Part shown: one piece after another, positions 3,401 through 63,977 of the stretch | How the letters are laid out: each line of letters begins with the position of its first letter | Position numbering within the stretch: position 1 is the first letter of the stretch | DNA from: Odiellus spinosus | Taxonomy: Eukaryota > Arthropoda > Arachnida > Opiliones > Phalangiidae | NCBI GenBank assembly: GCA_963920705.1 | Contig: OY987233.1 | Coordinates: 3,090,001 to 3,154,000, forward strand | Reading direction: 5' to 3' | DNA length: 64,000 nt | Notes under the pieces: model-generated | Databases searched by the model: none | What the model was told of the DNA's origin: nothing | What the model saw: only the letters and a program-made list of their open reading frames with translations | Position numbers and translations under genes: made by a program

Positions 3401-4473
3401 GATTATAAAATAACGAAATATTTTTGGTGAGTTATATTATTGTTTTTCTCATTATTTTAGCATTCTTAATCGATTAAAAATAGATTGTTTCGGTCTTTTA
3501 TTCTCCCTTTAACATTTTGATATTGTTTATTTTAGTTTTTGTAGGGAATTCAATGATATCCCACGACAGGTAGCCACGAAAAGGGCTTGACGAAAATAGA
3601 CACGCGAAAAAAAACTTGAAAGTCCTCTTCTCAATTAGAGCGTGGGCCAGAAAATAGGCAGATAGGATGAGGGAAGGATTGTAATAAAGATGGTAGTTCA
3701 ATCCGTATTGAATTTAAATATAACGTATCAAATTGGAATAGACGATGGAAGTTAAATGGGATCAATTGCAATTGGTAGAACTGACGATGTATCTAGGTTG
3801 AAATTTGTAATATATCAATGAGCTAAAACATCGGAGGCCAAAAATAAGTTTAGTAAAGTGTATCGTACAATGAATTTAATTTTTTAACCTTTCCTTTGTT
3901 TCGAACGCGTAACTGTGAACAACGCAACAGCTAACACGCACTCAATCTTCCCAAGTTTAATTCAAAAACATTAGTTTCAAACCTAATTATTATTTTCGTT
4001 CTTTAAACAGGGCTCCATCGGTAATTGATCAATCCGAAATTGCTCATATGAAAGAGGATATTTCATATTTGAAGGAGAAAATACGAGAAGAAGAAGCCGG
4101 AACTAATATCGCGAAGAAGCTTAGTTCCGGTTTGTTATCTGGATTGGAAGATGCTGAAAATTTGATCAAAAAGTTTCAATCCCAATTAAGATCACTTATT
4201 AACGAAAATGACGCTCCAATTAGGCATCCGTATTCCCCTTCAGTAACGCCACATACGACCCATCACGATACGGATATTCCAAAAGGGTTCCATCCTGGGG
4301 GAACTGGTGAACCCAATTTGAATAAAGATATAGGAAATGAAGATAGATACGAATTTGATGAAAGAAATGGAGATGGTAGTAGGATGGCTATGTCTGGTAC
4401 CTCATCTAATTTCGCTCTATACTTTAGTAATTGTATCTTGTTAATCGCGATTCAAATGTTTGTTAACGCTTGA
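401..4473 (+). CDS. Ankyrin-repeat protein with predicted secretion signal and GPI-anchor-like tail
   Basis: Three exons join in frame: 401-439, 2359-3065, 4011-4473 (1209 nt, 402 aa). Exon 1 encodes a hydrophobic start (MNIFGILALFVIL), read as a signal peptide with cleavage probably after LVSS. Exon 2 holds about seven ankyrin repeats (TPLFLA, APLFVA, TPLMKA, TALHAV motifs with GADV/GANI turns). Exon 3 adds an acidic, coiled-coil-prone stretch, a Pro/His/Gly-rich spacer, then a small-residue region (MSGTSSN) and an 18-residue hydrophobic end with no polar tail, as in GPI signals. Donors are GTAATT (440) and GTATGT (3066); acceptors TTTTCAG and TAAACAG. A CAG acceptor just before the ATG suggests a 5' UTR intron. 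Ankyrin repeats are normally cytosolic, so this topology is unusual. The splice model is inference; the whole-length frame agreement supports it. Partner and function unknown. Confidence 0.72.
534..772. repeat. Palindromic element built of GCGCAGTTTTCCATTT sub-repeats
   Basis: The left half carries several copies of GCGCAGTTTTCCATTT-like words; the right half carries the inverse (AACTGCGCAACTGGAAAACT, then AAATGGGAACCGCGC). This looks like a small foldback or MITE with sub-terminal repeats. It lies in intron 1 of the ankyrin gene. A diverged GCGCAAGTGGGAAACTGCGC word recurs at about 2022-2041. Confidence 0.5.
1187..2005. mobile_element. Element with diverged inverted arms of about 100 bp
   Basis: The words CCAAAAGGGGATAGAAAGT and AAAAAGGGCGC at 1196-1234 return inverted at about 1961-2005, and the arms also share an AATATGGAGAAC block. 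It lies in intron 1 of the ankyrin gene. A compact palindrome with the same terminal word is at about 10148-10183. No coding capacity seen. Confidence 0.45.
2150..2215 (+). repeat. Dispersed repeat with CCCCGCAATACTACGTCATC core
   Basis: The word CCCCGCAATACTACGTCATC followed by ACTATG occurs here and at about 9886-9911, and inverted and diverged at about 16353-16380 and 31314-31340. At least the 9.8 kb and 31.3 kb copies share a further 100 bp or more of flank. Confidence 0.5.
3077..3508. mobile_element. MITE family B, copy 1 (TTAA flanks)
   Basis: Starts AGGGAGAATGAAAGGCCGAA and ends with its inverse TTCTCCCT. TTAA lies on both sides (3073-3076 and 3509-3512). The arms are over 150 bp. It begins 11 bp after the donor of ankyrin exon 2; an unspliced transcript would read into the terminus and stop at its TGA. 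Confidence 0.85.
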
Positions 4474-16033: not shown

Positions 16034-18751
16034 ATGTCTACCAATAAGTCGGAAAATATTCACATTATAACGCTAGCTCAATACGAAATTCTTAAACCAA
16101 TGATTTACGACCGGAATAGATTACAATTAATAATTATCGGAATTCCAATTTGGGTTAATATCGCGTTACTCGTATTGGGTATCATTTTTAACAGTTTAAA
16201 CGTAATGGTATTTACTAGACCTTCAATGAAATCAGTCTTCAACTTTCTACTGACCATTTTAGAAGGTAATATTTTTCTTTAATTTCAAAGATTGTAAAAG
16301 TGAGGCTGTCACTCGTGCCACTTGAGGCTCTACAATATAGCCAGCCGATCACAGATAGTGATGACGTAGTATTGCGTGGAATTTTTATTACAAAAATTCA
16401 GAAAATAGCGATTATAGAATAACATTTTCTACTACATATCAAACACAATTAATTAACAATGTCTATACTTTTCCAAGAATGTTCCAGAAAACTCTGGAAA
16501 GGGCTTTCTAGAAAACCAAAGATCTGGAAAGTTCTGGAAAAATCTAGAAAATTCTGAAAAATTCAAAAAAAAAAAAATTTTCCACGGGTTTTTGCTAGTG
16601 TATATCCACGCTCTGGAAATCAAGCCTGGCACGGCTTGTCAGTAGAGGTCGGGGTTTGAACAATATTATCCACAAATATTTGGTTAATCAGTTAATCATA
16701 AAAAATAATCGGTTAATTATTCGCGATTACATTGCGTTTATCCAGAGGTATATAATAACCCCCTTCGGGGGGAAGTATGAAAGCCCCTATACTACCAATG
16801 CTAAAAATCACGAACAACAAGAGCCCGCTGCTGACTATCTAGGCCACTAGCTCGCGCTGGACTTCTTAATGTCGCTACTCTAGTAAATGGTCTTTGTATA
16901 AACAAGACGGCTCGATTTGTGTTTAGAACTTCCTGTCTCAGGAGTCAGGCTGTCTGTTAAATTGGAGTCGAAGGTTGACTTCAGCTCGCAAGTTCCCGGA
17001 AGTGTGCGTAGGGAAAATTTAGTGAGGTTCAAAATGGTGTAACTATTTTTTGGGAGTAAAGCGGTGTGTCGATCCGCCGCGATTTACGCCGGGCACTTGT
17101 TGTTCGTCGATTTTGCCTACCTTTCATACTTCCCCCCGAAGGGGGTTATTATATACCTCTGATTTATCATAGACTTCCCGTGAATAATTTCAAAATATGA
17201 ATAAAGATAAAACAGAAATTATCTTAACCAAACCCCGACCTCTACTTGTCAGAGGTCTGTTTAAAGGGGCTATCTGCTATTTTTTAAATCCCCTTTAAAG
17301 TCGACTTCTTTTCTAGCTTAGCAGACGACGTTGACCATAACCAATTGCACAGTCAAAGCTAGGCTGCTGTGTAAAAAAAGAGCATTTTAAAGGTGTACAT
17401 TTTTGAGCAGATAGTGCCTCTAATAACCTCTAAGATGATAGCCAGCGAAACGTTTAGAAGGTGTTTTTTAAACCCAACATTCTTTTCAAAATGTTGATGG
17501 AAACGTCAATATTTATTTCTTATTTTCTTTCCCACAGGCATCAACATCGTATTATATCTGACGATGATACCTGGAATAACTGTATATTTGTTTCCAATCC
17601 TAATACCTAACTATTACTTCATGATAGTTCATCACATCAACCAATGTCTCCTTATCTGTTCGGCTTGCGTTTCTAATTGGTTAACAGTCACGGTTAGCGT
17701 GTTTAGATTCATAGCGGTCACGTGGCCTCTAGCATCGGTATCATTGTGTTCTAAAAGAAGGGCATGGTACGCCGTCATCGCCTTAGTCCTTGTATCATTG
17801 GTTATTACTATAATTTGTTTAACGTTGTATCGCGTTGTCGAAACCAAAATCAAGGTCGTCGAGAATTCTACTGTCATCGAAGAATTTCAATTGTATTCGC
17901 ACGGAATTAATTTGAATTTGATTTCAAAACCTGCAGCTTTTACGTTGGTTTCTATTCTACATTTGATGGTTTACACAGTACCTTGTATGGTAACAATAGT
18001 AGCGATTCTTTCGCTATTGGTTAATTTATGGAATGCAAGGAAAAAAAGAAAATCCTTGATGTCGGAAACTCGCTCGTCGGTAAATATGTTTAAATTATTA
18101 AAGAGAAACTTGGAAAATTGAATTTATTTTCGGAATCACCATGCCAAAAAACGTATTCGAGAATTTTTTTGCAATTTTTAGACGCATTTTTGGTGTTTAA
18201 ATTAATTTTTAAAGTTAAAATGTCTATAAAATTAAATATAAATTCGGACCAATCATATTATTTCAGCCTTCAACAGTGCTTGTAATGTCTTAACATTAAA
18301 AGAATAGGTCGGCGTTTGATGCCTAAGACCTTGGCCATCAAACGCCGGCCTATTCTTTTAATTTTGAATTGTTAATTTCGCTCAGGTACTCAGCGCATCC
18401 GTTTCAACAAAAAGTTTAACAAACGTACGAAATAGTGAAGAGAAAATTACTTTGACCCTGTTAATCGTCATTGTCCTTCAACTAGTGGCTCACGTCCCTT
18501 CTTCGATTGCCTACGGCATAATACTCATTTACTCAAATACAACAATAGTACCGAGGGGGTTAATGGAATTGGAATCCTCGAAATTCTTGGTTCTCGTTTC
18601 AAACTTCTCTACGTTTATAGTTTATTTCGCTATGAGCAAAAGGTTTCGCGTCACGTTAACGAGTGTATTTTGTGGCAAAGATAAATTGCGAAGAAAAGAC
18701 GCAAATTCCACGATATACGTTAGTAACACGACAATGACGTCACACATGTAA
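16034..18751 (+). CDS. Rhodopsin-like peptide GPCR, FMRFamide-receptor-like
   Basis: Exons 16034-16265, 17538-18079 and 18386-18751 join in frame to 379 aa. Expected seven-helix plasma-membrane neuropeptide receptor coupling to G proteins; the ligand is not predictable. TM1 is IWVNIALLVLGIIFNSLNVM (conserved Asn kept, preceding Gly replaced), followed by the intracellular FTRPSMKS turn. TM3 ends VSVFRFIAVTWPL, so the DRY position reads FRF: the Arg is kept, the acid lost. TM6 keeps Pro (VAHVPSS); TM7 has NFSTFIVYF then SKRFR, like the NSSxNFxIY..xxxRFR end of FMRFamide receptors. Start chosen at an ATG with A at -3. Intron 1 carries a nested hAT/MITE pair, intron 2 a family C MITE. The nematode srw family is the main alternative. 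Confidence 0.85.
16352..16450 (-). repeat. Dispersed TACGTCATCACTAT repeat, inverted diverged copy
   Basis: ATAGTGATGACGTAGTATTG is the inverse of the core word at 2177 and 9886. In GPCR intron 1. Confidence 0.45.
16477..16554. repeat. GAA/TTC pentamer cluster (heat-shock-element-like)
   Basis: GAA at 16477, TTC at 16482, GAA at 16487 and GAA at 16497 keep a 5-bp phase. A second phased group has GAA at 16527, TTC at 16532, GAA at 16537, GAA at 16547 and TTC at 16552. In GPCR intron 1. Confidence 0.4.
16643..17244. mobile_element. hAT-like MITE with TSD CTTGTCAG, host of a family F insertion
   Basis: Inverted ends TAGAGGTCGGGGTTTG / CAAACCCCGACCTCTA flanked by a perfect 8-bp duplication CTTGTCAG (16635-16642 and 17245-17252), typical of hAT elements. 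It contains family F copy 1; without it the host is about 180 bp. Confidence 0.85.
16743..17161. mobile_element. MITE family F, copy 1
   Basis: Ends CAGAGGTATATAATAACCCC and inverse, with internal inverted arms (CACGAACAACAAG / CTTGTTGTTCGTCG). Flanks GTTTATC and ATTTATC suggest a 7-bp duplication. Nearly identical to 55984-56394. Confidence 0.88.
18122..18365. mobile_element. MITE family C, copy 2 (both ends worn)
   Basis: Carries TTTTCGGAATCACCATGCC, GACGCATTTTTGGTGTTTAA, TCGGACCAATCATATTATTT and the GGTCGGCGTTTGATGCC palindrome. It fills GPCR intron 2 to about 20 bp before the acceptor. Confidence 0.7.
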
Positions 18752-30435: not shown

Positions 30436-33400
30436 CTAGGCCCACACCTGTTGTAATAATAATAAATTTCACGATAAGATATTAATTGGCTTCAAAACAT
30501 TTAAATGAAATCAAGAATCGAGTGGGCGAGTACTCGAAAAACGCGAGTCGAGTACTCGAAAAACGCGAGTCGAGTACTCGAAAAACGCGAGTCGAGTACT
30601 CGAAAAACGCGAGTCGAGTACTCGAAAAACGCGAGTCGAGTACTCGAAAAACGCGAGTCGAGTACTCGAAAAACGCGAGTCGAGTACTCGAACTCGAAAC
30701 CCCTTTTTCCAGGACTCAAACGAGTCATCCACCAAGGCTTAAAAAATACTCATAAGGACTTGTAAATAACTATAATTACCAAAAGGGGGCCATATTTTTG
30801 AACGAGTCTAGCAGGGTGACCAGGGAAAAACTTCAAATTTTATAGGAAAAATAGGAAATAAAGGCGAATTATAGGAGAAAATTTAAAATTATACGGAAAA
30901 TATAATAAATAATAACGAAAATTTAGGATAAATAACAGCTAATTTATAGGAAAAAATAGGATACCTTTCAATATCCGTTGATTTAACATTTTTACCACAT
31001 ATTTATTGCTTTTTGATTTTAATCTCTCCCGTTTTTGACTTTACGCCATTGGTGGGAATTTTTCAATTTTGAGAAATTTTTAATTGTTCTTTTATTTGAA
31101 AATGAATAACCTGATAACCGAAAAAAGGGAAAAAAAAAAAAAAAAAGGAAAATATAGGAGAAAAAGATCAATTATAGGAATTTATAGGAAAAAATTGGAA
31201 ATATAGGAAGTCTGGTCACCCTGGTTTAGATTTTTCGAACGATTTCTATACTTTTAGTTAACTACCACCTTTTTCTCGCACCAGAATGAACGTAATCAAC
31301 CGTGAACTACTCTACCATAGTGATGACGTGTTATTATGGGGAATTTATGTTAAAATTTCGAAAATGTTGTGATAATTGTGTCTATTACATATGCATATAT
31401 ATTTTGAATCGGTTTTTAACGATCCTTCCAAAAATGCTACTCATTTTCCATTTGAAGCGCATGAAAAATCCGTAACAGCCTCGATTTAACAAGTATTAAC
31501 AATTAAAAGTTTTCCTACCCGTAATGTAAAATCCCAACTTCCCGTAGAAAGCGCTGTTCCATCGGGAGATACTTTTAAACATGTCACTCGATTTTCGTGA
31601 CCGTATAAGACGCTCATCCGTACACATTTTAAGCTATCCCATACGTTTACAGTATAGTCATTGTAGCCAGCGAATAAAAGACGACCTACAAAGAAAATAT
31701 ACACAGCATTATCTAGCAAAAATCGCAGCTTCGGGGAATAATTAAAAAGAAATGGATAAAAATTTGGAAAGAGTGTCAAGTTCTTTGAACTGTATACTGA
31801 GAGTTTAGTGACGGGTCTGATAACCACGTTGTTGGGGTTTGGACAAGTGGACAAGATATTTCCGATTATTTTTATTCAAAATTTGAGATTATCCAAGGGG
31901 ATTCAATGATAAATCCAACGTAATGGAAACATTTGTGGATTAATTAACTGATTATCCAAATATTTGAGGATAATTTTGTCCAAACCATGACATTTACCAA
32001 TGCTCCCAGAGCATAGCCCAAAAAAATTATAGGTAATATAGGTTTTAAAAGCCAAAAATATAGGTTATTTATAGGTCCAAAAATATCCATTTATAGGACT
32101 TTTTATAGGTTTTTAGTGTCAAAAAAATAGGGGTTTTATAAGTAGGTTAGGCTGACATGTAATGCAACATACTACATAGGTTCTTTAGCCTCTAGACCAG
32201 ACTGCGAAATAAGCTCAATTTTTCAAGCAGTCCTGGGGACCAGTGGCCCCTCATGTCTCGAATAATTAAACTAGTCCTTGGGACCAGTGACCTTATTCTT
32301 ATTTTTATTTAAATGGTCCTACAGTTTCAGTAGAGAGTAATTAGAAGGGAGTGTATGGCTGGGAGTGTAATATAGGTTAAAAAATCATGACATTAAAATT
32401 GAATTTGAAATTTTAACTCCTTTATTGGTGTAAAAAACAAACATTTAGCACCAATGAAGGAGTTAATTTTATTCACGTGTCTCCTTCGTTTTTTAAAAAT
32501 TAAAATTTCTAATTATTAATTACCATGGATAATAGGTTTTTTATTTATTAAAATTGAAGTTGTTCAGGACCTATTGATGATTATCAAGATCTTTTTTATT
32601 GGTTATCAAATAGGCAACTTTAGCATATATCACATATTATCTTAAAATGACTTCTGATATTGCGTGTTATTTTATCACAAAAAAGTCACATTTCTAGGGC
32701 CTTCTTTAAAAGAGTCAGTTTAGACTCAGGGTAGGGGATGGAGGGGAGTAAGCGTCTAAGCGCAGTCTTTTAGCGGATTCAGCGCCGCGCAGTAAGTGAT
32801 AGTTAAAGTAGACTACTACTAGGAGTGTATACTTAATAATGTATAACTGGAGTTGAAATGGCATATATTAAACTGGTCCCGATTATAATTTTTATTAAAT
32901 GTTATAATTAATAAACTAGTCCCCAGGAACCAGTGACCCTCTGATTTTGAATTAAAAAAGTGGTCCAAGTAATAAATAAGCTGGTTTTTGACCTCTGGAC
33001 TTGTCTTATTTGGCAGTCTGCTCTAGACCTGTCTCTCTGCCTTTCTTTGGCACTACTACCTAGTCACGCCCCCTCCCGAAAGTCTACCTAACCTCTAATA
33101 AAATAGAGTAATAATTTCCAGTGACCTAGGAGAGGAAACCTTTCTGCCACAGCTTTGGGTTTTGCGAAGATTTGCACTTTTTCAAGCAAAAGAATAATTT
33201 TTATAGTTATACTGATCATTCATTTCGAATTTTATCAGCGAAATTGAACAAATTACCCAAAAAATAGGTATTATAGGTTTTTATAGGATCACTTCAGAAT
33301 TATAGGTATTATAGGTGGTTTGGGAGCCCTGACTGCCCAAAATTGTGAAGGCATGCATCGAATGTTCCTTACATGGGTTTCAATGAGAAATATCCTAATA

Positions 33401-36400
33401 ATTGAAGATTCATTATTTTTCATGTAACTACTTCTGGCTAAAACTAATCATATGACGTCATTCCTCACTATTTATAGTACGCGTGTTAAAAGCTATCCAT
33501 AAATCAGTCTATCCAGAACTATGTTCTGTCCAAAATTGTGAAAGCATGCATTGAATCTTCGTTAAATGGGTTTCAATGAGAAATATCCTAATAATTGAAG
33601 ATTCCTAATTTTTGATGTAACTAATTCTGGTTAAAACTAATCATATGATGTCATTCCTCACTATTTACAGTACGAGAGTTAAAAGTTATCCATAAATCAG
33701 TCTATCCAGAACTATGTTCTGTCCAAAATTGTGAAGGCATGCATTGAATCTTCTTTACATGGGTTTCAATGAGAAATATCCTAATAATTGAAGATTCCTA
33801 ATTTTTGATGTAACTACTTCTGGTTAAAACTAATCATATGACGTCATTCCTCACTATTTACAGTACGCGTGTTAAAAGTTATCCATAAATCAGTCTATCC
33901 AGAACTATGCCTATGTTCTGTCCAAAATTGTGAAGGCATGCATTGAATCTTCTTTACATGGGTTTCAATGAGGAATATCCTAATAATTGAAAATTAATAA
34001 TTTTTGAAGTAACTACTTCTGGTTAAAACTAATCATATGACGTCATTCCTCACTATCTACAGCACGTGTGTTAATTATCCATAAATCCGTCTATCCAGAG
34101 CTATGTTCCAGGGCTCCCAGTGCATAGCCCAAAAAAATAGTATTACAGTTTTTAAAAGCCAAAATATAAGTTATTTGTAGGTCCAAAAATATCAATTTAG
34201 GACTTTTTATAGTTTTTTAGTGTCAAAAAATATGGGTTTGGCTGACATGTAATGCAATATAGGGTCTATAGCCTGTGGACTTGTCTTATTTCGCAGTCTG
34301 CTCTAGACCTGTCCCTCTGCCTTTCTTAGGCACTACTAGCTACTTGCGCCCTCTCCCGAAAGTCTACCTAACCTCTAATAAAATAGAGTAATAATTACCA
34401 GTGACCTAGGAGAGGAAACCTTTCTGCCACAGCTTTGGTTTTTGCGAACACTTGCACTTTTTCAAGCAAAAGTATAATTTTTATAGTTATATGGATCATT
34501 CATTTCGAATTTTATCAGCGAAATTGAACAAATACCCAAAAAATAGGTATTATAGGTTAAAAAGTGAAATTATAGGTTTTCATAGGATCACTTCAGAATT
34601 ATGGGTAATTATAGGTAATATAGGTGGTCTGGGAGCCCTGCATTTACGATTACTTATCACTTGGTACTGATAACTTTAAACACTGAAGACTAAATACTTA
34701 CCACTAACGGAGAAATCTACAGAATTGACACCAAATATAATGCTTGGTTTAGTGTAAACAGCCACTTCCCTATTGGCTCTCAGGTCAAATAAACGACACT
34801 GAAAATAAAAGGCTAAGTTCGAAATAAATTCTCTAATAGAAATGCAACGTTCACGAGATTACCGTGGAATCATCAGAGCCGGTGGCGATCGCGTCTCCAC
34901 TTGGGTAGAATTTAACAGTGTTTATATCGGATTCGTGACCCTCAAACGCTTGAACGCATTGTCCCGTTCTCATATCCCATATTAAAGCTTGACGGTCACA
35001 GCCCTGTTTGGAAAACGGGTGCAATTTTTTAATTACACACTTTTCCAAGTAACAATCGGGTAATTATAGTTAAAGTAGACACGTAATCTAACTAGATTTG
35101 GTCCCTTTTCAAATTGATCTTGTTATTCTATGGGAGGGCATTTTAAATATTAAATCGCGGTTCCTTACAGCCGACACAAAAGTGTTCCCAGTTTCAGATG
35201 GACACTGGTCAATGGCCATAACGTCGCCAGTATGGCCGTGGAAACTTTGCAAGAGTTGGGAACATTCAACATCCCAAAGAGCGCATGTACTGTCACCGCT
35301 ACCAGTCAATATCTGCGAATAAAAATAAATATATGGCGAATATGAAACCCAGTGAGAAGCATATGTATTGTTAATAACGTTAAGCTAGGGTTAATCATCG
35401 CTTAAAGGGATTAGGAAACCTAGGTTTGAAAACTAAGAGTTAAAACAGTTTTTAGGGTTTAAAATACTTTCGTCCAATCTATTTCGATTTTGTACATACT
35501 TAGGCTATGGTGTCCAAAGTAAGACAACCCTATCCAATCTTCCCCAATAAAGAATGTCTAAGTGCGGTTTCTCAAAGTTTTCTTTCTTCTACCACATTCA
35601 TTAAATAATGGAGAAATATTTATCTCAAAAATGTTCAAACCTAGCTGCCCTAAAACCTCCACAAGCAGTCTTATAGACTGAAGCGCATTTGTCTCGAAAA
35701 TGAACACTTAAATAGGAATATTTAGGTCTTCAAAAACTCAAATTTACTGAATCTAGGTCATTTTAGCCGTGACACAGTCAAAGAAATAATAAAAAAGGTT
35801 ATTCAAATACTTGTTGGTCCGAATTTGGAAACAAGCAACAGGACATGTAACTCGTATGTGTGCCAACAGCTTTTTTCTTGGAGGATACATCTTCGTCTAA
35901 ACTTAAAGGATAAACTGTCACTTTATTGTCGAGACCGCCGCAAGCCACCATTGTGCCTGAAGGAGCGTAAGCGCAAGCCATAACCCAAGTTGTGGGCATA
36001 GTAACTGCGTGTTCCTGCGAATTGAGAAATTGGACCAAAATATGAAACATATTAGGATTAGAGTTGTCAATTGGTAATTTGCGCGTTAAATTACCAGAGT
36101 AATGGTAAATTATTGTTTTCACATGTGCTTTTACTTTCAATTTTAATGTGCTCCCATAAAATAACCAAAAAAATTGGCTGTCGCAATTTTTTGGTCAAAA
36201 ATGATTCAAATTGGAAAATTCCAATGAAAAAACCCAAATTCAAAGCATTTTCCACTTTGGTTAACTTTTGTGCAATTCCATTTATTTCATTTGATTGAAT
36301 TCTGTTGAAATTTTTGACCAAAATATATATATACATATATATTTTTTTGGTTATTCTACGCAAGCACATTGAAATTAAAAGTAAAACAGATGTATTACCG

Positions 36401-42589: not shown

Positions 42590-45500
42590 TTAAACCCAAT
42601 ATTGATTTTTTCCTAAAAGTGGATTGACGGGTACACCGAATCTCATGTCTCCCGGAGCCCCAACCCCACCGTCGTAATGCTGCCAATCGTCACTTTCGCT
42701 AACCTCGGAAGGCTCGTGTTTTAAAAATTCTCCTTTAAGTTCGGCCGAGTTGTCGGCTCCCAATTCACCGTGTCCTAACAAAGGAGTAACTTTACACGTT
42801 GGCACCGAACCACTCACTTCTGTCCAATCACCAACGTCGGTAAGATAGGGTAGCGGAGGAGGTGGTGGGGGAATATTAGAGTCGATTTCCATCCTTCGAC
42901 TCTTGTTGGCCATCGCTCTAGGTCTAGGGGAAGCGCAAGTACCGCTTCCGGTACTTGACGGAGACGTTGGTGGTGGTGGAGGTGGAAGATCATCCGACAG
43001 CGATATGCTACCGTTGGATGGAAGTCTGTCTGGGATTCCGAGGTCAGTCTGAGCCGTTAATGACCCTGGGAATTTACTGGTCGCGTCAATTTGTGACGAC
43101 CGTTTTTCCCGCTTTTTTCTTTTGTTATTGGAGACCCGACATTTTATGGAAGCCACTACCACGATGGTTAAGACTAGTATCACCGCGACTACGACTATAA
43201 TCAGTACTTCGTCGTTACCTATTATATTGGGACTAAAAAATCCGGAGTTTTGAGTTGTAGAGACGGCGGTGGACGTTGGCATAGGGAAAGAAAAAGGTGT
43301 AGAGGTGAAACCGAGAGTATCGTGGGGCGGGGAAAAACCTATTGGAATTTCCGGAAGGAAATGGCGATAAGTGTATTCGAATCTTCCATTGGCTGGTTGA
43401 ACGTTTGGTGCCGTTATTCTGTAATCGAATCCGTCCTCGATGACGACATTGTCAGTCGAGTTCATATCGGGTGCCACGATCACGACGAAGCCGCGAACCA
43501 CATCCTCGTGAGTGAATTCCGAAACGGATTCAATCGCGTCCCTCGGGAACCGATCCGAATTTTTGCGCAAAGCTAGATATCCGTAAGAAGGTGATTTAAT
43601 CACCGTGTATTTAGGATTACTATTCGTCTGTTCAGCTAACTTAGAAGCGTCCAGACAGTCTAAAGTTAAAACGGTAACGCTCCCGAAGATTAAATTTGCG
43701 ACTTTTTGTTTAACCAAAGGCACGACAGATACGTTGACTACGTGATTGGCTATAACGTTCTCTGGATTGTATACCGTAACCGTAAAATGATCCTCAGAGT
43801 TGGTGAAATTATATTGCATATACATAACAACTTCGTTATCAATGTCTAATTGGCGAAATCTGTAGGTTATGTCGTCATTCATAAATATTCGCCCGTAGAG
43901 TGGAGGAACTGTTACGTTATACCAGATCTCGCTGGGGTCACCGTTTGTGGATGCCCCTAAGTTACGGGACTGCAAGAAGACAGCAGCTTGACCCTGTACT
44001 AGATGGACATCAGACGCGTTAACTAATTCCAATGATAATGGAACAACGTGAATGTTGAAAACATTGTAGAATGGTTTGTGTTTTCCGTCGCTAACTTTAA
44101 AATGGAACGTCCCGTGGCCTCTAGTCTTATCGTGAACGAAATAAACGTTACCTTTATCAACGTCATCTTGGGAAAAGGTGTACAAAGGTACTGTCATGTT
44201 TGATTTAAAAACAATCAACCCGTTCGTTGGTTTTTCGATGATTTCGTAAATTATATCTTCCGGTATGCCGTCATTATCCGTCGTGTTCAATTGACTGGCT
44301 AGTATTTCTACCGTTTGACCCTGAATTACTTTTAATTTTGGAGCTAGCGTTTGTAATTCGAATGGTTGATCATTGATAGGGATAACGGTGACGTTTATGG
44401 TTCCATTCATGAAAAGAAGATCCTGGTTACCGTTCGCTCCCGCGATGAAAAAGTTTAGAGAGAAATCATCCTCAAATGTTTCAGAATTATCGTGATGATA
44501 ACGAAACAATTTCTTTCGCAATTGTTGCCTACCGAAAGTGACTTTGTTCGTCTCCGTAATGTTCTCACCATCGAGTTCTAACCAACCATTTCTCGGCAAC
44601 GTTTGAATAGCAATTTTCAAAATTTCAGACACTTCGTTTTTACTTTTTCTCTGCCACATTTCCAATAGTTTGGTTACATTGACGTATTTTTGATTAACGA
44701 CTATCTCACCTCCTTCTTCTACTTCCAAATTTTTCAACACCACTAATTGTTCTAGGTTAGTGTTTCCGATGTTTCCAACGGATATTTCAATTTTAAATTG
44801 GAAATTTCTCATTATTTCGGCGTAAGCCGTTTCAATGTCGAAAACAACAGCGTCTGTGGCTGAAACTCCGGCCAAAGGATGAGTTTGTTCGTAAAGAACC
44901 AAGTTTTTGTCAATTTGTTGTTGGGTAAATTGCGTTACGGGGTTTAGTGATCCATCTGGACTTTCTAATAAGATTCTACCCAATTGCGGAGGTTGCGTAA
45001 CGTGAAACACAATTTCACGATCATTTTCTTGGTCGTTAGTTCGAAGGCTTAAGTGGTCTTTAGTAATAGATTGCTGCATTCGTGGAAATATGTACAATTT
45101 TTCATTCACAAGAACAACGAGCTTCAAGGGACTAGCAGTAACTGTAAAAACATGGGGCGAATCATAGTTCGTACCGTCGTTTACTTGAAATCGAAAACCA
45201 CCAGCGCTATCTCCTATTGGAAGAAAGACGAGGGAAAAAAATGTTTAAAATGGATAGGGCATAGTTTAGATGGAGAATAAATTTTCAGTCCTTTTTTCCG
45301 ATTTATTACGAATAAAAGGAAAGGCCGATAGGAATCAAAATATGTCAAAAATTGATTCAAAAAAAAAAAACTTCACTGTTTCCGATATAAAGATCTTAAA
45401 GTAGACACGCAAACTGACTCGATTTGGGCCTTGTCAAATTCATATCGCACCAAACTCGCAAGAATTTAATCAAAAGAAATTTTAAAAACTCGCGAGGCTG

Positions 45501-48500
45501 TTTTAACCTGGTATGTGACGTCGGTTTTTACTTTACGAAGCATTTTTGATCAAATTTGAAGATTTTTCACCAAATTAGAAGATTTTTTACCAAATTTGAA
45601 GATTTTTTTACCAAATTAGAAGATTTTAATCAAATTAGAAGATTTTAACCCAACTAGAAGATTTTTAACCAAATTCAAAGATTTTTCACCAAATTTAAAG
45701 ATTTTTGACCGAATTAGAAGATTTTTAACCAAATTTAAAGATTTTTCACCAAATTTAAAGATTTTTCACCAAATTTAAAGATTTTCACCAAATTTAAAGA
45801 TTTTTGACCAAATTAGAAGATTTTTCACCAATTGGAAGGTTTTTCACCAAATTAGAAGATTTTTCTTATTGGATAAGCCGATTTCGATCGTTATTCTATG
45901 GTAGCACATTGAAATGAAAGTAAAACGCACGTCACGCGTATGTAAAAAACAGCTTGGCGAATTTTATCAATTTCTAAAGATTAAATTCGCCAGCTTGGAG
46001 ACAATTCTCGAATCGAGTCAGGTTGCGTATCTACTTTAAATCAAAACGCTTTCCTTTATAAAGGGAAACAATCCTGTTCTCATCCCATCCGCAATATTTC
46101 ACAATGACTTATAGATCTGACATTATCAAGTGGTGGATGAAGTATATCGATCTAAGTATCGAAACTCTAAAGATGCCTTTCCATTCGCTTACAAAAATAA
46201 TGATGTGTCTTCGGGGGTAGAGGGGGTTTCTTCCTATCTATAACTTTTACTCCCACCATATCAGTAAAACTAGATTCTATCTGAAAATACCCCCAGATGA
46301 AAAACCGTAAGAACTCTTTTTATTACGTCCAAGTTAGAGTGACACGATTGAAAAGGAAAAAAAAAAAAAGAATTTCCTTAGATGGTGGTACCTACTATTC
46401 AGTGCCACAAACGATTCAATCATTATTATTAAGCCCTATAGTATAAGAATGTCAGCCAAGTTGCTTTATCTTTTCCACCACCGTTACAAATACCTATATA
46501 ACGTAACAATAGCGCAATTACGTTACTTCTTAGACTATTTTATAAGAAAAAAATGTTATAACAATAAGCCATAATTTATCAGTTGTAAATTACGCACTAG
46601 GGCTACCCAAAATCAGTGTTGATGTTGCCAAAAGTGTGAAACCATAAGTCTATTATTATCTCTAAGTAGCCAGCTAACAATGCTATCTATGGGAGGTATC
46701 TCTGTATACTTCAGACCTATACCACGTATCACGTTAACTTTAACATAAACTTGAACGCCGATGCCGACATTTCTTTTATCTCGTATAGTACCAGGCACGC
46801 CTGAACACCAACAAAGGGGGATATTTGGTTTTCAGTTAAAAAATGCGTCCCCCCACCACTCTATACAAGGGGCTAAATCCCGAAAATTTTCCTATTCCAA
46901 GAAATATTTAATTTTTTAGACCACCCTGACGGTCAGAATCACTCTAGCCTTTCATACCTTATGAATCTATTCCCACGTCTATCTCATAGAAAGCGACTTA
47001 CGGAGGTGCAGGTGTATAATTGGCATTAGACGTTCAGAAATCAGGGACTGGGGTCTGATAAAAGAGATAGCTTCGTCTTCTTTATTGATACAATAAATGG
47101 GGAGTTGTTGAAAAAGAAAAAACCTGTTCTGTAAAGCCATTTCGGCGATAGAAAAAATAAAATAAACTGGTTTATTTTCCTTTATACTCAACCAGTGGCG
47201 CTGGCTTCGAGAATATTTTCAAAATCGCTAGCCCTGACGAAACGTTTTGTAGACATAGATGCCCAATCGAGAGGCCTTATTTGGCTACTTAGGGATAATA
47301 ATAGACTTATGGTGAAACCTAGGACAATTACCAATGGGCAGCTATGTACGAGGTTCCTACTTCTGCCCCTAGGTGTGTCCATTGTTAATAGTTCTAGGTG
47401 AGATTGTTACTTTAATCATTACCTGTGTGAAGATAAACGACTAAGCCTTGGTTGATTTGTTCCTGGGTAAAACTGAGAATAGGTGTCATAGTATCATTCT
47501 TGTAAGCGACGTAGCCATTGTTTGAATTTGATATAACGAATGTCACTTCGAAAGCCGTCGAATCATCATCGAGAGCGGATAGATGGTTATTGGTAATCGT
47601 GGCAACCGATCCTTCCCACAGAACTAACCCAGTGTTGTTGACCAAATGCGGTGATTCGTCGTTGACTGGTTCAACGGCGACGTGAATGGTGCTTGGCGCG
47701 CTTTCCTTACCGAGTGTTTCCGCTTTGGCAACGAGCGTAAACCAGTCCCGGGATGTTTCGCTACCATCGTGAACGTATCTCACTTGTCCAGCGTTGAGTT
47801 GCGACGGAGCGAACGCTGCTAATTTAAAGCCAAGAAGGTTTCCATTCGTTAAATGTCCGTGATGAGGTTGTTCCACGATTAAATATTCAGTTATCCAGAA
47901 AGTGTAGTAAGTATTAGCGGCTCCAATTTCTTCGGGAGTTAATTTCGCTTCTTTACCTTCGAAAACCGATAAATTTCCAGTTCGCAATAGTATTATTTTC
48001 GATATAATGTTAATAGTTAATTTTAAATCTGTCACGCTAGTAATTCCGTTAGTTACATCGACAACGAAACAATCTTCAGTAATGTTTTGTTCCGTTTGAA
48101 CGTAATAAAGTTTTCCTTCGTTAATAGTAGCTTGATTGAAGCTTTTAACAGATTCTTTCGTATCTTCTTCGAAGTCGTTTTTATGTTTTACGGGATTGCT
48201 ATCTTCAATTTCAAGATATCCGAAACTTGGAGCGACTTTTAGATGATAAGTGATATTTGAAGGATTAACATTAGCGTGAGCAACGTTTAATACACGGGCG
48301 TCTAACGTAATTCGTTGTCCTTCGTCGACATACAATGTTTTGTTACAGAAAACGCTTAAAGGTTGCCAGTAACTGTCCGGAAAAATTCGTAAATTAAACA
48401 CGTTCTCGACATTAATGTTTCCAAAATATGCCACGAATTTAAAAGAATCGGCGAAACTCAAACTATTATCGTTTTCATACTCGACGTTATCGGAGTCTAG

Positions 48501-51500
48501 ATCTTTCTGCGAAAATTGATTGCCTTCTTTACCATTAATTAGAATTTCACCGAATTTAGGTTTTGAAATGATCTTGTAACTAATTTCACTTGGACTGGCG
48601 TTTTCGTTCGTCTCAACAGTTAGATTGTAAGACGTGATAAATTGACTTTCTCCTCTTCTAACGGTTATACCGGTGCTACGTGAAACGTTGATGAAAGGTT
48701 TCGAAGCTTGAATCTCTAAAATACCGGTGGCGTAAAATTGACCATCAGTAATCCATAGAACTACTTTCGAATAGTCGGCGCCCAAATGCCGGAAGAAGAT
48801 ACGTCCACGATTCAAATCTTCTTGGGTAAATTGATAAACTTGAGTATTTTGGTTGTCAACGTGAAAAAGAGCCCCGTTTGGAATACCTCTCCTTGTATAT
48901 TGAATATCGGATGGTTTGGAATCGATATCGGCGTCCACGTACATCAAATCTTTTCCAGTTAGTTTTCTTTCACCTCCTTGTACGATGTTAAAGACCTTAT
49001 CCACGATTCTAATCGGAGGATTATCATTCTTCATAATAATCCCGATATGAAACACTCCGCTGTAAACGAAATCTTCCTCACCGAGTTTAGCGAAAGCAGT
49101 GAAATGAAACGAATCGTGTTCAGTTTCGGAGTCATCGTGGGCGTAAGAAACGCGACCACTAACTAACTCTTCGTTGGTAAAAAAATTAAGAGAATGATTC
49201 TCGATTTGGGTAAGAGACGGCGTCATTAGTCTAAGAAAACCATTAATTGGTGGTGTGGATATATTGTAGAATAATGGCGCGTCACCTGGGGTTCGTACGA
49301 AGAGATACTTCGGAGTAATGGCGGTCGCGTCTCCTTCGGCTACTTCGAGCTTTTCGTTGGTTATGACGGCATTCGATTCACTTGGAACGTGTTTAATCTT
49401 GAAGACGCGATTATCCATTACGAAACCATCAGGCGAACTAACTTGAAACACGAATTGATCATTGACTAAGGTGTGAGATTTACGATGAATTTTGTACTTA
49501 AGGTGCTTGTTATCAATATCTTGTTGCGTAAATAACGAATTCGCGTCTAAACGTCGATGCATACGATTCTCCGAAGGTTGAAACAAAACTAAATTTCCAA
49601 ATAATGTCGGTGAAGTTATTGTGTACGTAATTTGATCGGCTGGTGTCGAGACTGGTGATGTCTTGTACTTCAAATCAGCCTCCGTGATATGTCCTTCGAC
49701 TACGTTTTCTAAAACTAATTCTTTATTGGCTACTTCTACTAAATCTATCGTCGTGAAACTAATCCGAAAATCATAAATGGTTGGTACCGTGATGTTGAGA
49801 CACGATATTGAGAATTTAAATTCATCAAAAGCTGGTCTTCCGGTGGTATGTTCGTAACGTATCTTACCCTTGTTGATTTGTCTCTGTGTAAAATGATTAA
49901 TAGGGTGCCATTTGTTGTTCATACGCAGTTTTTTTAAAGTACCGAATTGTGGAAGTTTGGTTAATTCGTATCTAATTTCTAGATTTTGTTCCAAAGCGTT
50001 GGTACCGAAAGTTAAGTTATCAGGGTGAATTATGGCGTGAGAATTATATGGAATCACTAAACCAGTGTTGTTTACGAGAGATATTACCAAATCAAACGTG
50101 GCAACACGAATCACCGCCGTTTGACCCGTTTCCACGCCGTCAGAAACGCTTAGAGCTAATTTAGAATCAGCTGGTCCACGATGCACGAAATTAATGACGC
50201 GATTTTCGACCTCTTCTTGAGTAAATCGTTCTATGGGTTCGCCAGGTTTCTTAGCACTCTCGATGTAACCTCCTTCACCAGACGATCCTAGATTAAGAAC
50301 AGTGTAGACCAAGTCCTTCGGCTTAGTGTCTGCGTCTTCTGTTTTTAGAATGTCCGGCGTTAAAGTTTTCTTGGTGTACCTATTAAATTAAAAGCAAAAG
50401 TCTATCACTTTATTGTACAATAAAAATAAACAACGCCCCGTAGTTTAATACTATCAGCAAAGGTTCAGTTTTACGTCATATCCCATCATTTAAAAATAGC
50501 AAAAAAAGTCATCACCCCTGTCTAGCTGCTGTGATTTGGACTTTTCCACGATATTTTGAGTTCTGGAGAGAGGGAGTGAATTTAGGCGGGCCGCGCTTGG
50601 CTATATTGTCTTCCCCCCAACTTGGCGCTTCCGATGTCACTATTTACACGGCGACTGCAACCGCTAGAGTGTCTAGAATCGTGCAGAATCTGGCTTTACA
50701 TTTACCCGGACCTTTGTTGATAGTTTTAAGCTAAGGGGCGTTGTTTACTTTTATGGAATAAAGTGATAGACTTTTGTTAAATTTATTTCCCCCTACCCCC
50801 TAAAAAAAGGCCCAACAATAGCTTTCTAATAAGTATTCTAGTAAAAGAAGCGAAAAGGTTTTTTACCTGGCTAAACGAAAAACTTTATTCGCTGGTACTT
50901 GTAACGTTGGCGGATCGTTGACAGGAATTATATGAATGTGGAATACGAATTGGTGTCTTTGTTCCATGAAAGTTGGTAGACGATAATTTCTAGCTTGAAA
51001 TTCAAGCTCGATAACCATGGAATCTTTATGGTTTTCAGATCCATCGTGTGAATAACGAATTTTATCAGTATTAAGATCCAACAGACTAAAAACGTTCTCC
51101 CCAGTTTTCCTCCATATTTCAATCTCAAGAGTTCCGTGCTTTGGTGGTTCGATGATGTGGAAAAGAACGTTACTTTCTCGAAGTCCATACTTCTGATAAT
51201 CCATTATAATTCTGAAAAGATACAACGAAATAAATAAGATTTCACGATATCGTCTGTCAATTTTGTCTAAACTTCCACTTGAAACAGCTAATAAAACACA
51301 GCAGAAAAAAATTAATAGTTTAAAGGGAAACTTGGAGCTTTTAAATTTATTTTCGGAATCACCGTGCCTAAAAACGTATTCCAGAATTTTCAAACAATTT
51401 TTAGACACATTTTCGGTGTTTAAATTAATTTCTGAAGTTTGGTAAAATTTGAATAAAAGTGAATATAAATTCGGACCAATCATATTATTTCAGCCTTCAA

Positions 51501-54500
51501 CAATGCTAGTAATGTCTTGGGTATCAAACGCCGGCCTATTCTTTTAATGTTAACAGGACATTAGAAGAACTGTTGAAGGCTGAAATAATATGATTGGCCC
51601 GAATTTATATTTCAAATTTTTACCAAGCTTTAGAAATTAATTTAAACACCAAAAACGTGTCTAAAAATATAGAGAAAATTCTGGAATACGTTTCTTGGCA
51701 TCCAAGTTTCCCTTTAAATATACTTTTAACCATACTACACCCGTTTCGATAGAATTGGATAGAATTTATTTTATCGCTTGTTTTACATTTAAATTAATTT
51801 ATAAATTAAAAGTATTTCACCTGATATGAGTGGGCGTGATCAAATCACTTCCGCCCTCTTTCACTTCCAAGGGATTGAGAGATAAAATCTCCATATCGAT
51901 GGGCAAAGTTGACTTTGTGTAAAGTTTGTAGCCGGAAGTAAAGTTACTACGGATGCAAATAGTTTCGGCACACATACAACGAAACGAATCAACTCCTTCT
52001 TGAAAACATTCCGCTCCATTCACGCAAGGATTTTGTAGGCAAGTGTACTGCCAGACGCAATTTCCTCGAACCCCTTGAGTCACTTCGGCTTCCCTAAGCC
52101 CTACCACTTCGTCGTTAACCTAGAAACGAAATGTTCGGACCACAATATAACGAATTACAATCGAGGAAGAGAAATATAAGGAAATATGGGTGTGAAGTAA
52201 AGCCGCGTTCATACTAGGCCTTGGAATCGATTTAAATCCTTTCAAAACGTTTCGCTCGAATCGATTAAATTCGATTTCTCAAAACTGCTTCGGGAACCAG
52301 TTTCGTACCGATTCGGTTTCAACAACCGATCGATGAAGCTACGATGAATCGTTCACGTTACGCTTAAAACGATTCCTGGCGATTTGAATATCGGTTTGAT
52401 TTTACCGTTTCAAATCGATTAAGAAACGCCACGGTATTTGTTAATCGATTTGAAACGGTAAAATCAAACCGTTATTCAAATGTGTTCACGCATTATCTTT
52501 ATAAATCAATTTATTGTAGCTTCATCTATCGGTTGTTGAAACCGAATCGGTACGAAACTGGTTCCCGAAGCAGTTTCGAGAAATCGAGTCAAATCGATTA
52601 GAGAACAGACGGTTTCCTTTTCAAACGACTCTAGCGAAACGTTTTGAAACGATTTAAATCGATTCCAAGGCCTAGTATGAACGAGGCTTAATGCTAGCTG
52701 AAATGGAATAAAAAGAGAAGTAGCGACGTGTGTCACCTTGATGTTTTTCAGGCAACCCTTGAGGAAGCTCTCGGCGCCTTCTGTCAACACCGATTGCAAT
52801 CCCTGCTGAAACGCTCGAGATTGTTTATTTAGTTCGATTCCTCCCGCGTACAAATATCCCGCTAAATCGAAATATCGATTTTCGCCCAATCCTTGGCGAA
52901 CGTTTTTGACGCTACCGTCCGTGGTTAGTTCGACATTTGAAGCGCCGAATTGTATATCCACCTGATGCCATTGGCCGTCGTTTACCGTGGAATCGGATTT
53001 CAAGACGACAACTCCGTTTCCCTCGTTGACTGATAGGGTAACGCGACCTTGAACCAACTCGACAGCGACAAAATCGTTTTTGGAAGAAGGACCCGCGTGA
53101 TAAAACAAGACAGCGTTGTGTGACTGTGATTTTACGCTGAAAGATAGCGTACCTCCGCCGCGAGCGTTCCAGCTAGGGAGTGCCACGAAAGCACCACGAC
53201 CGACGAAACTTATAGACTGATACGAAGACGCTTCGAATTCTTCGCTACAGTCCCAAGTGACGCCATAGACGTTTCTCTGGTCCGGAGACTCGGCTGCCAT
53301 CGTTAATATATTATGGTCGTTGAAGGTTACGACTTCCATACAACCGCGAAAACTTTCTAGATTACCCAGAAAGATCTCCTAAAAATATTTTAAGTATTCA
53401 AAAATTATATTTTTGGGGAATTTCGATTCCTTAACAAATTTGAATTTCAGTTTTTTGAACAACAACGATTTAGTAGCAAAAGTCTATCACTTTATTCTAT
53501 AAAAGTAAACAGTTTCCCGTAGCTTAATACTGTCAGCAAAGGTCCTGGTAAATGTACAGGCAGATTCTGCAGGATTCGAGACACTCTAACGGTCGCAGTC
53601 GCCGTGTAAATAGTGAAACTGGAAGCGCCACTCTTTGGAAAAATTCCGGAGTTGGGAGGGAAGACAATATAGGCCCGCCTAAATTACGTCCCTCTCTCCC
53701 GACTCAAATTATCGATGAAGAGTCCAAATCGCTCGAGACAGACAGGGGTGATAACATTTTTGGCTAGTCTTAAGTGATGGGCTAAGACCTTGGCTGATAG
53801 TATTAAGCTACGGGGCGTAGTTTACTTTTATGGAATAAAGTGATAGACTTTTGATAGTAACCTTTCCCATCTTTTAATTGCGGGCGTGTTGATTTAATGA
53901 ACAATAGGTAACAATTTTGTAAGGAATCGAAAACAAAATATAACTAACACTTACCTTAAAACCTCCTAAACTACCAACGTAAACCCCGTATTTGATATTT
54001 AGCTCGAAAAATCGACCAGGAATATCCAAATAGGTTGTATGAATATTATCAATCGTCATAGATAATTCAGCGTCTGTTCTTTGAATTTGAATATCGTGCC
54101 AAGCTAAATCGTCTAGCCTTAAGCCGGGCGATGATGTAAGAATGGCTTCTCCCGAACCCAAATTGATACGAACCTTCATATAAAATTGACATAAATAGTT
54201 TAGTTGCAGTTAGTGGATACTTCATTAAGGAAGGTAAACCTAAATGTGCCTGGATTCAGTGAGTTTCTGTTTATCAGCCTAACGTTTCTATTCAAGGTGC
54301 AGTAGACTATATTTGGGATTTAACTATAAGAGAAAAAATAGGTATTTTTACCTTAATACCACCGCGCTCCATAAGCACAACGCAATAATCGATGGTTCCC
54401 GCTGCCAGCAATAATACGCCATCGGATCGGTGCGTTTTCAGTCTGATGAGAATTTCAGTCGAGCTTCGAGAGTCTTCGAAGGGTATCGACACGTAACTGG

Positions 54501-57894: not shown

Positions 57895-58158
57895 TAAGCC
57901 TAATTTCAAACGTGGATTAAGTCTAATTTCAAACCTCGTTTAAACATAACTTCAAACCTCGTTTAAACCTAACTTCAAACCTCGTTTAAGCCTAATTTCA
58001 AACGTCAATTAAGCCTAATTTCAAACGTCATTAAGCCTAATTTCAAACGTCATTAAGCCTAATTTCAAACGTCGATTAAGCCTAATTTCAAACGTCGATT
58101 GAGCTTAATTTCAAACGTCGATTAAGCCTAATTTCAAACTTCGATTAAGCCTTATTTT
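57895..58158 (+). repeat. Minisatellite, TAAGCCTAATTTCAAACGTC unit
   Basis: About a dozen copies of a 19-22 bp unit with length variants (GTCAT, GTCGAT, CTCGTT). The GCCTAAT word also makes up the array at 20208. Confidence 0.92.
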
Positions 58159-61539: not shown

Positions 61540-61975
61540 AGGGAGAATGCAACGTAATTACAAGTGATTTTTTTATCGATTCCTTATCGTTTAAATAGGC
61601 CTAATCCATCGATAAAAAGTTTACAATACAAATATTAAACTAAAAATAAATTTAAAACTTACCCTGAAAATAGGCTTAGCGGGATTCATGGAGATCCTGA
61701 ATTGCGTCCGTGTAAGGTCTAGCGACCAATGAGCAAAGGCCCCTCGTTCACGCGAGACCTCCACTAGACTTACGTCGCGTGCGATTGGTCGCTAGACCTT
61801 ACACGCGAGGAAATCAGGAGCTCCATGAATTCCACTAAGCCTATTTTCAGGGTAAGTTTTAAATTTATTTCTAGTTTAATATTTGTTTGTAAATTTTTTA
61901 AATAGTGGATTAGGCCTATTTAAACAAGAAGGAATCGATAAAAAATCACTTGTTGTTAGGTTGCATCCTCCCTTT
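61540..61975. mobile_element. MITE family A, copy 10
   Basis: Shares its left TTAA (61536-61539) with family C copy 6 and has TTAA at the right (61976-61979). Closest to copy 2 at 9312-9734 by its GCGTCCGTGTAAGGT core. Confidence 0.88.
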
Positions 61976-62411: not shown

Positions 62412-62560
62412 GACCCAAATAGAAAATAATTACGCTTAAAGCTACTAAAACAGGCGCGTAAACGTTACAGGTACACATCTTAATCAAACCTTTATGTTTC
62501 GTGAAAATAAAAATATATTTCGTTGAAACTCTTAAATAATTTCATTTCAAATTACGGGAT

Positions 62561-62766
62561 AGAATTTTCTAGAAGGTTCTAGAATTTTCCAGAAGGTTCT
62601 AGAATTTTCCAGAAGATTCTAGAATTTTCCAGAAGGTTTTAGAATTTTCCAGAAGGCTCTAAAATTTCCCAGAAGGTTCCAAAATTTTTGAGAAGGTTCC
62701 AGAATTTTCCAGAAAGTTCCAGAATTTTCTAGAACGTTCCAGACTCTTCCAGAACATTCTAGAATT
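62561..62766. repeat. Phased GAA/TTC array: 41 heat-shock-element pentamers
   Basis: GAA occurs every 10 bp from 62562 to 62762 (18 of 21 exact) and TTC every 10 bp from 62567 to 62757 (16 of 20 exact), giving unbroken alternating nGAAn/nTTCn units. The consensus is a 10-20 bp unit, TTCTAGAATTTTCCAGAAGG. HSF trimers bind three or more such units. Function is inference. Confidence 0.9.
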
Positions 62767-63420
62767 GTGTAAATCAATTAAAAACTGTCTAAATCAATCA
62801 AAAATTGTCTAAATCAATTAAAAATTGTCCAAATCAATTAAAAACTGTCTAAATCAATTAAAAAACTGTCTAAATCAATTTAAAACTGTCTAAATCAATT
62901 AAAAAATGTCTAAATCAATTAAAAAATGTCTAAATCAATTTAAAACTGTCTAAATCAATTAAAAACAGTCTAAAACAGTTAAAAACTGTCTAAATCAATT
63001 AAAAACTGTCTAAATCAATTAAAAACTGTCTAAATCAATTAAAAACTGTCTAAATCAATTAAAAACTATCAATCAATTAAAAACTGTCTACATCAATTAA
63101 AAACTGTCTAAATCAATTAAAAACTGTCTACATCAATTAAAAACTGTCTAAATCAATTAAAAACTATCAATCAATTAAAAACTATCAATCAATTACAAAC
63201 TATCAATCAAAAACTGTCTTCATCAATTAAAAACTGTCCTCATCAATTAAAAACTGTCTTCATCAATTAAAAACTGTCTTCATCAATTAAAAACTGTCTA
63301 AATCAATTAAAAACTATCAATCAATTAAAAACTGTCTATATCAATTAAAAACTGTCTAAATCAATTAAAAACGGTCTAAATCAATTAAAAACTGTATAAA
63401 TCAATTAAAAATTGTCTAAA
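62767..63420 (+). repeat. 19-bp satellite, AAATCAATTAAAAACTGTCT
   Basis: More than 30 copies, with shortened variants (ACTATCAATCAATTAAAA) in the 3' half. It directly follows the GAA/TTC array. I see nothing further in 63421-63977. Confidence 0.95.
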
Positions 63421-63977
63421 TTATCAAAAACAACTTTTTAATCATTTTCTTTATGTTCTATTCTTAAATAAGAAAATGTAAAATAACTCGGAGATATATT
63501 TACATAAAACCAGTCTGTAAATCGTCTTTTCATTCTCAAAAATAAAAAAAAAAATCGAAAATTGACTTTATATATCTCCTGCAATCTGTTATTTGCATCA
63601 TTTCTGAATCTCAAAGTATAATAAGATAAAATAAATAAACTTTGTTGCTCGAAAAGTGAACTGTACAAAATTTAAAATGTCGATTTTGCCAATTTTTTTT
63701 TTTCTTTTTTTCGTTATAGGTTTGTTTTGATACGTCAAAAAGGTAATTAGGCAGAGTTCTATCTGTTCAGTGGCTCGTGTTTTCCCTTAAAATCAATATT
63801 TTTGCTTTTGATACGACCGGAACAATAGAGGTAGAGAGGAAAACGTGCTTCTATAGAGTAACGAGAGACACGGGGTCATCACTCTTCCAAATAACGTACG
63901 CTACAAGTTTACAAATTATTCAAGTCATCTAAACCATTTACTTAAATAACAGTAAAAAATACGTATTTCATAATTTC

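Follow-up and report, generated by a model that had tools for sequence, protein, structure and literature searches.

Phased heat-shock-element arrays in a 443-Mb animal genome: most likely a minisatellite spread by Helitrons, with predicted HSF binding

The flagged array and its surroundings

Heat-shock elements (HSEs) that keep a single phase across a whole 206-bp array raise the question of whether such a locus stands alone, how it arose and whether HSF might bind it. The array was flagged by an initial annotation within a window of 64,000 nucleotides, the whole stretch of DNA analysed here (C11:3090001-3154000 of a 443-Mb assembly), and was described as holding 34 exact pentamers out of 41 in one register. 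Our recount of positions 62561-62765 as pentamers returned the same 34/41 exact matches to nGAAn/nTTCn, all 34 strictly alternating in the order GAA, TTC, GAA, and at seven further start positions 0 or 1 pentamers fell in alternating order. With an HSE defined as at least three alternating nGAAn/nTTCn units in a 5-bp phase, the flagged array is of this type.

A tandem-repeat scan delimited the repeat at 62560-62766, with a period of 20, 10.4 copies and 86% matches. The 5-bp phase over 200 bp is real, as originally described, but it comes from one 20-bp tandem unit repeated along the array, so that the 41 sites do not represent 41 independent observations. Deviations of the array from its own unit were found at 7/123 triplet positions as against 13/82 spacer positions (Fisher p = 0.028).

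The array had also been tied to the satellite beside it as a special locus, a link that we reject. The adjoining repeat is a separate, local minisatellite, for which 29 other matches were reported at only 66-78% identity (in a search that skips simple repeats and leaves its rarity unproven), and the 80 bases on either side of 20 other arrays contained no repeat of this type.

Elsewhere in the window (Table 1), the reading frames with Cadherin_3 and laminin-G domains are presumably CSPG4-like, and an Rfam scan returned nothing at gathering score. A large foldback element occupies 61569-61945, with 162-nt arms that are 86% complementary and lie 53 nt apart; two further array loci (L010, L018) contain sequence related to it. 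Genome-wide, (TTAGG)5 gave 7381+2915 matches, the first 100 listed being spread along C1, which suggests interstitial telomere-like repeats or telomere-targeting elements. (TTAGG)n is the telomere motif of arthropods, and its abundance here suggests that the host is an arthropod rather than a nematode.

Table 1. Positions of the features found in the window.
Feature	Position	Strand	Remarks
Complete copy (160 bp) of the HSE-carrying non-autonomous Helitron family	16439..16598	+	between A16438 and T16599
Short phased HSE cluster inside this Helitron copy	16527..16564	.	6/8 pentamers; also in tandem-repeat scan
Srw-like GPCR	17498-18118	+	
Tandem array	30527-30692		perfect 22-bp repeat, 7.5 copies
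WD40 (G-beta-like) exon	31486-31875	-	
Tandem array	33333-34108		193-bp repeat, 4 copies
Cadherin_3 and laminin-G reading frames	42590-53378	-	
Tandem array	57895-58157		23-bp repeat, 11.5 copies
Candidate Helitron 3' hairpin remnant, weak	62549..62559	-	TCCCGTAATTT on minus strand, compared with TCCCGTGATTT
Phased HSE array	62561..62766	.	20-bp unit AGAATTTTCCAGAAGGTTCY, 34/41 pentamers exact
20-bp minisatellite, separate, not HSE	62766..63421	.	unit TGTCTAAATCAATTAAAAAC, tandem-repeat scan

Arrays across the genome and the drift of their units

Used as a query, the flagged array gave 278 matches in the genome, lying on 12 contigs among the matches listed. Twenty of the matched array loci were fetched for comparison, and a phased array was present in all 20, the longest with 191 of 237 pentamers. 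The genome-wide count of similar arrays that the initial annotation had proposed was run with an exact pattern of six units (three occurrences of GAANNTTC at intervals of 10 bp), which occurs 392 times in 443 Mb when overlapping matches are counted, as against 0 matches with the letters reversed and 1 with an 11-bp phase. These controls, together with shuffled sequence, rule out pure chance and AT-rich composition. The flagged array is real, far from chance and not a lone locus; rather than being a single special site, it belongs to a large set of dispersed arrays, of which many lie inside a Helitron-type transposon. In a prokaryote collection of 257 Gb, the same six-unit pattern was found in 83 stretches; HSF is not known from prokaryotes. 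On a viral-labelled contig with GC-rich surroundings (IMGVR_UViG_3300007770_000813, positions 4004-4051), ten phased HSE pentamers (GAATTTTCTAGAATTTTCTGGAATATTC...) look, by sequence, like a strong heat-shock promoter.

Two loci differ in architecture. At C8:4396603-4416664, HSE-like matches span about 20 kb, and the 1.4 kb read from this block (4404000-4405400) consists of a 21-bp unit, GAATATTCTAGAATTTTTCCA, that is 97% self-similar at 21 bp and supplies 57 four-unit HSEs for about 67 units; because the unit measures 21 bp, the 5-bp phase slips with every repeat. At C5:4569000-4573400, an HSE array without Helitron ends (1943-2436 of the fetched locus) lies between inverted repeats, with 46 nt at 100% plus another stretch at 90%, which looks like the capture of an array by some other foldback or TIR element.

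Equal drift of triplets and spacers in the other copies, which the initial annotation had named as evidence against its reading, was not what we found. Between arrays (one unit per locus, each compared with the window unit), 11/240 triplet positions and 45/160 spacer positions differ (Fisher p = 6e-11), so that spacer differences are six times as frequent as GAA/TTC differences, in loci that were selected with the flagged array as BLAST query and whose array frames require >60% GAA/TTC, a choice that leans towards triplets. The alignment was chosen in favour of the spacers, and the excess conservation of triplets was still present. Likewise, within arrays, triplet deviation was lower than spacer deviation in 23/26 comparisons, equal in two (L010, where both are 0, and L016) and higher in one, a block of L025. 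The lower drift of the triplets argues for maintenance of the HSE motif. By sequence, the arrays are heat-shock elements. In the inner spacer, TTC[xy]GAA, the two bases are almost always TA, CA or TG; the outer one, GAA[xy]TTC, is variable. At 11/20 loci, one triplet change is fixed in the array unit, so that only three of the four sites per 20 bp are intact there.

Helitron-like ends around HSE-rich interiors

Alignment of the DNA beside ten arrays revealed one sharp boundary, TCAAACACTATTAATTTACAATGTCCGTACGT or a variant of it, usually preceded by A and followed by HSE-like sequence and then by the array. Beyond several arrays lie variants of CCCGTGATTTTTCACGGGTTTTTGCTAG and then T, a hairpin with CTRR typical of a Helitron-like 3' end. 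Helitrons have been described with a 5'-TC after a host A, a 3' CTRR before a host T and a palindrome of 16-20 bp near the 3' end (PMC6544945), and it is because of these termini that we assign the family to the Helitrons. In idealised form the family reads A|TCAAACACTATTAATTTACAATG...HSE-rich body...CCCGTGATTTTTCACGGGTTTTTGCTAG|T. Genome-wide, 136+122 = 258 5' ends were found with at most 3 mismatches (control 0) and 105+89 = 194 3' ends with at most 1 mismatch (control 2); the exact 5' end was absent from the viral contigs.

The best 30 of the 258 5'-end matches, two of which (L043, L047) are the same copies as array loci L009 and L023, were examined for their surroundings. A host A precedes the end in 27/30, and a three-unit HSE follows in 29/30, counted to the 3' end or over the first 400 bp. 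In total, 284 three-unit HSEs were present in 30 kb downstream of these ends, compared with 6 in 30 kb upstream. A readable 3' end was obtained in ten copies, giving lengths of 182-404 bp, and none in the other 20. Within these ten, paired HSE pentamers make up 0.27-0.72 of the interior, about half. They are arranged as HSE decamers of 10 bp, for the most part TTC-YR-GAA-nn, in tandem expansions of differing length. Across the 30 interiors, GAA and TTC spaced by exactly 2,2 bases gave 175 motifs, as against 0 to 14 for seven other spacings and 20 for the reversed motif; 200 shuffles gave a mean of 0.5 and a maximum of 4.

The ten readable 3' ends terminate in CTAG (6), TTAG (3) or CTAT (1), with T next in 8/10, a count that leans towards CTAG/T because the ends were found with a pattern containing CTAGT (at most 4 mismatches). 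The palindrome near this end consists of CCCGTGATTTTTCACGGG variants before TTTTTGCTAG. Folded as DNA, four of five ends (L065, L062, L012 and L051) form the hairpin, with at most 3/200 shuffles folding as well; the fifth, that of the window copy (z +1.06), folds no better than shuffles, and neither does a further end, that of L027 (z -0.56).

This window copy is bounded by A16438|TC at its 5' end and CTAG|T at its 3' end. It matched the 5' profile at E = 2e-5 and the 3' profile at E = 1.1e-5, being a training row in both, and gave E = 0.0012 with a 5' profile built without it. Its 3' hairpin is degenerate, and its last 31 bases fold no better than shuffled ones.

Association of the arrays with such ends was assessed from both directions. 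An end profile matched at E < 0.05 in 12/20 array loci, of which three (L009, L023, L012) depend on copies that had served as training rows and one (L017) has its end about 590 bp away from the array; the other 8/20 showed no Helitron end at this threshold. Moreover, over C1, C2 and C3 up to 10.7 Mb, and with 3-mismatch 5' ends excluded, 6/17 listed HSE clusters have a listed end no more than 1.5 kb away, where random placement gave a mean of 0.044 and a maximum of 2. When 13 flank pairs were joined, no spanning (empty-site) copy was present among the fetched DNA. The genome gave 150 Rep-domain matches, and 13 Rep-encoding loci showed no HSE array and no matching ends in the DNA fetched (12 at about 3.5 kb, three of these again plus one new at about 9.5 kb, covering parts of the elements rather than their whole length).

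Around the flagged array itself, motif, profile and local-alignment searches gave no support for an enclosing Helitron. The 5' and 3' end profiles had no significant match there, and end-profile searches of 62549-62559 likewise gave none; the TCCCGTAATTT sequence just to the left of the array resembles the start of the hairpin, at a score equalled by 41/1000 random 100-mers of the window. Since significant ends are lacking and the left-flank match is weak, we infer, rather than observe, that the flagged array derives from an HSE-carrying Helitron as a copy without ends.

The genome contains one HSF-domain match, and the pieces around it are what we take to be the DNA-binding and coiled-coil segments of HSF. 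Upstream regions were read for four of the five strongest hsp70 matches among 29, the strongest (C7) being left out. All four contain TTCTAGAA sites, with TTCTAGAGCTTTCTAGAA close to a TATA-like sequence; an exact three-unit HSE is present in three. In two of these, that second site is TTC-GA-GAA, which is not the favourite spacer of the arrays, so the likeness in spacers is partial. In C. elegans, HSF-1 is reported to bind cooperatively with up to five DNA-binding domains (PMC9148306).

Competing explanations and known systems

The explanation that we consider probable is that the array is an HSE tandem block of, or derived from, a short non-autonomous Helitron family, which HSF would bind on stress and whose spread would scatter heat-responsive sites. 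Anatomy, dispersal, phase, triplet bias, the HSF-domain match and the presence of TTCTAGAA in hsp70 upstream regions can all be read in the DNA. An intact copy comprises the 5' end TCAAACACTATTAATTTACAATGTCCGTACGT..., an interior made up to about half of HSE decamers, and a CTAG-bearing 3' hairpin, and it lies between A and T. Under heat or proteotoxic stress, HSF trimers would bind its arrays cooperatively, and the bound HSF could recruit transcription across or beside the element. Such stress transcription may in turn aid the movement of the element or of its autonomous partner, and Helitron spread would leave heat-responsive sites near genes.

It is rather unlikely, though worth serious consideration, that the arrays are a neutral minisatellite, in which a TTCTAGAA-like palindromic decamer inside the element multiplied through slippage and Helitron replication, and the HSE likeness reflects descent from one captured motif that is not used. 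Tandem copying can spread and homogenise a unit without its being used, and the units are strongly homogeneous within arrays, so that repeat number alone is no proof of function. Helitrons with internal tandem repeats are known, such as HelitronY4_CE with its 15- and 40-base repeats (PMC4039745), and both the triplet change fixed in the unit at 11/20 loci and the phase-breaking 21-bp unit of the C8 block are consistent with the absence of use. However, neutral descent accounts poorly for spacers that differ between arrays far more than triplets do, for the exact 2-base spacing kept in the interiors (175 motifs against 14 at most) and for the recurrence of TTCTAGAA upstream of hsp70, even with TTC-GA-GAA at two of the four second sites there.

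The initial annotation had likened the array to human satellite III, as an HSF sink or stress-transcribed nucleator, a role in which extensive HSE arrays would hold back HSF and initiate stress bodies. For the flagged array this appears very unlikely, as it measures only 206 bp, belongs to a dispersed family and adjoins a minisatellite with a different unit; the idea fits better with the C8 block, given that its matches span about 20 kb and that four-unit HSEs are dense in the 1.4 kb read. We regard it as about equally improbable that a DNA-binding protein other than HSF, or the Helitron transposase itself, is what uses the motif. The repeats do sit between the element ends, where transposase binding could act, but motif and phase are those of an HSE, TTCTAGAA recurs upstream of hsp70, and four Rep-encoding Helitron loci read over about 9.5 kb carry no such array. 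An HSE-bearing tandem block spread by Helitrons and predicted to be bound by HSF remains our preferred reading.

Human satellite III is a tandem repeat whose unit includes GAA and which recruits HSF1; it is pericentromeric and built of direct GGAAT units. Unlike the arrays described here, it has no alternating GAA/TTC and is not borne by a transposon. The ONSEN LTR has few HSEs and no long arrays. ONSEN (COPIA78) of Arabidopsis resembles the present family as a transposon with heat-responsive sites, and is itself heat-activated (PMC6927752), but it is a plant LTR retrotransposon.

The closest likeness is with the Helitrons of Caenorhabditis. Helitron1_CE, HelitronY4_CE and others carry, like the family described here, dense tandem overlapping HSEs in mostly non-autonomous, dispersed copies (PMC6927752), and a 40-base HSE-like repeat, AAAATTCTGGAATGTTCCAGAACTTTCTAGAAAAATTGGG, has been reported from HelitronY4_CE (PMC4039745). 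These HSE clusters gained HSF-1 and Pol II on heat shock (Garrigues 2019, PMC6927752), so that HSF-1 binding and expression data stand behind the C. elegans precedent, whereas the likeness here is one of anatomy, from sequence alone, and the host has a 443-Mb genome with (TTAGG)n. Of the UCSC genomes with annotated Helitrons that Garrigues 2019 scanned, enrichment was reported for the three Caenorhabditis species only, and HSE-bearing Helitrons were considered possibly restricted to that genus (PMC6927752). Our literature search, which covered few subscription papers and is weak evidence, found no HSE-array Helitron outside Caenorhabditis.

Most likely, then, the arrays represent an HSE minisatellite that a Helitron has spread in a host other than Caenorhabditis and that HSF is predicted to bind. 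We propose more tentatively, as somewhat short of an even prospect, that Helitrons acquired HSEs a second time, independently, in another animal phylum, through an arthropod family with about half of its interior given over to HSF-binding arrays. This family would be under the control of the host heat-shock response and would have scattered hundreds of heat-responsive sites, with one block expanded over about 20 kb. In such genomes, transposon copies may account for most of the HSEs counted and most of the HSF peaks, and the question arises of whether genes became heat-responsive where these elements landed. If the proposal is true, HSE capture would be a recurring Helitron strategy and not a peculiarity of Caenorhabditis, and its occurrence for a second time, now in a (TTAGG)n animal, would point to repeated takeovers of the heat-shock switch by transposons.
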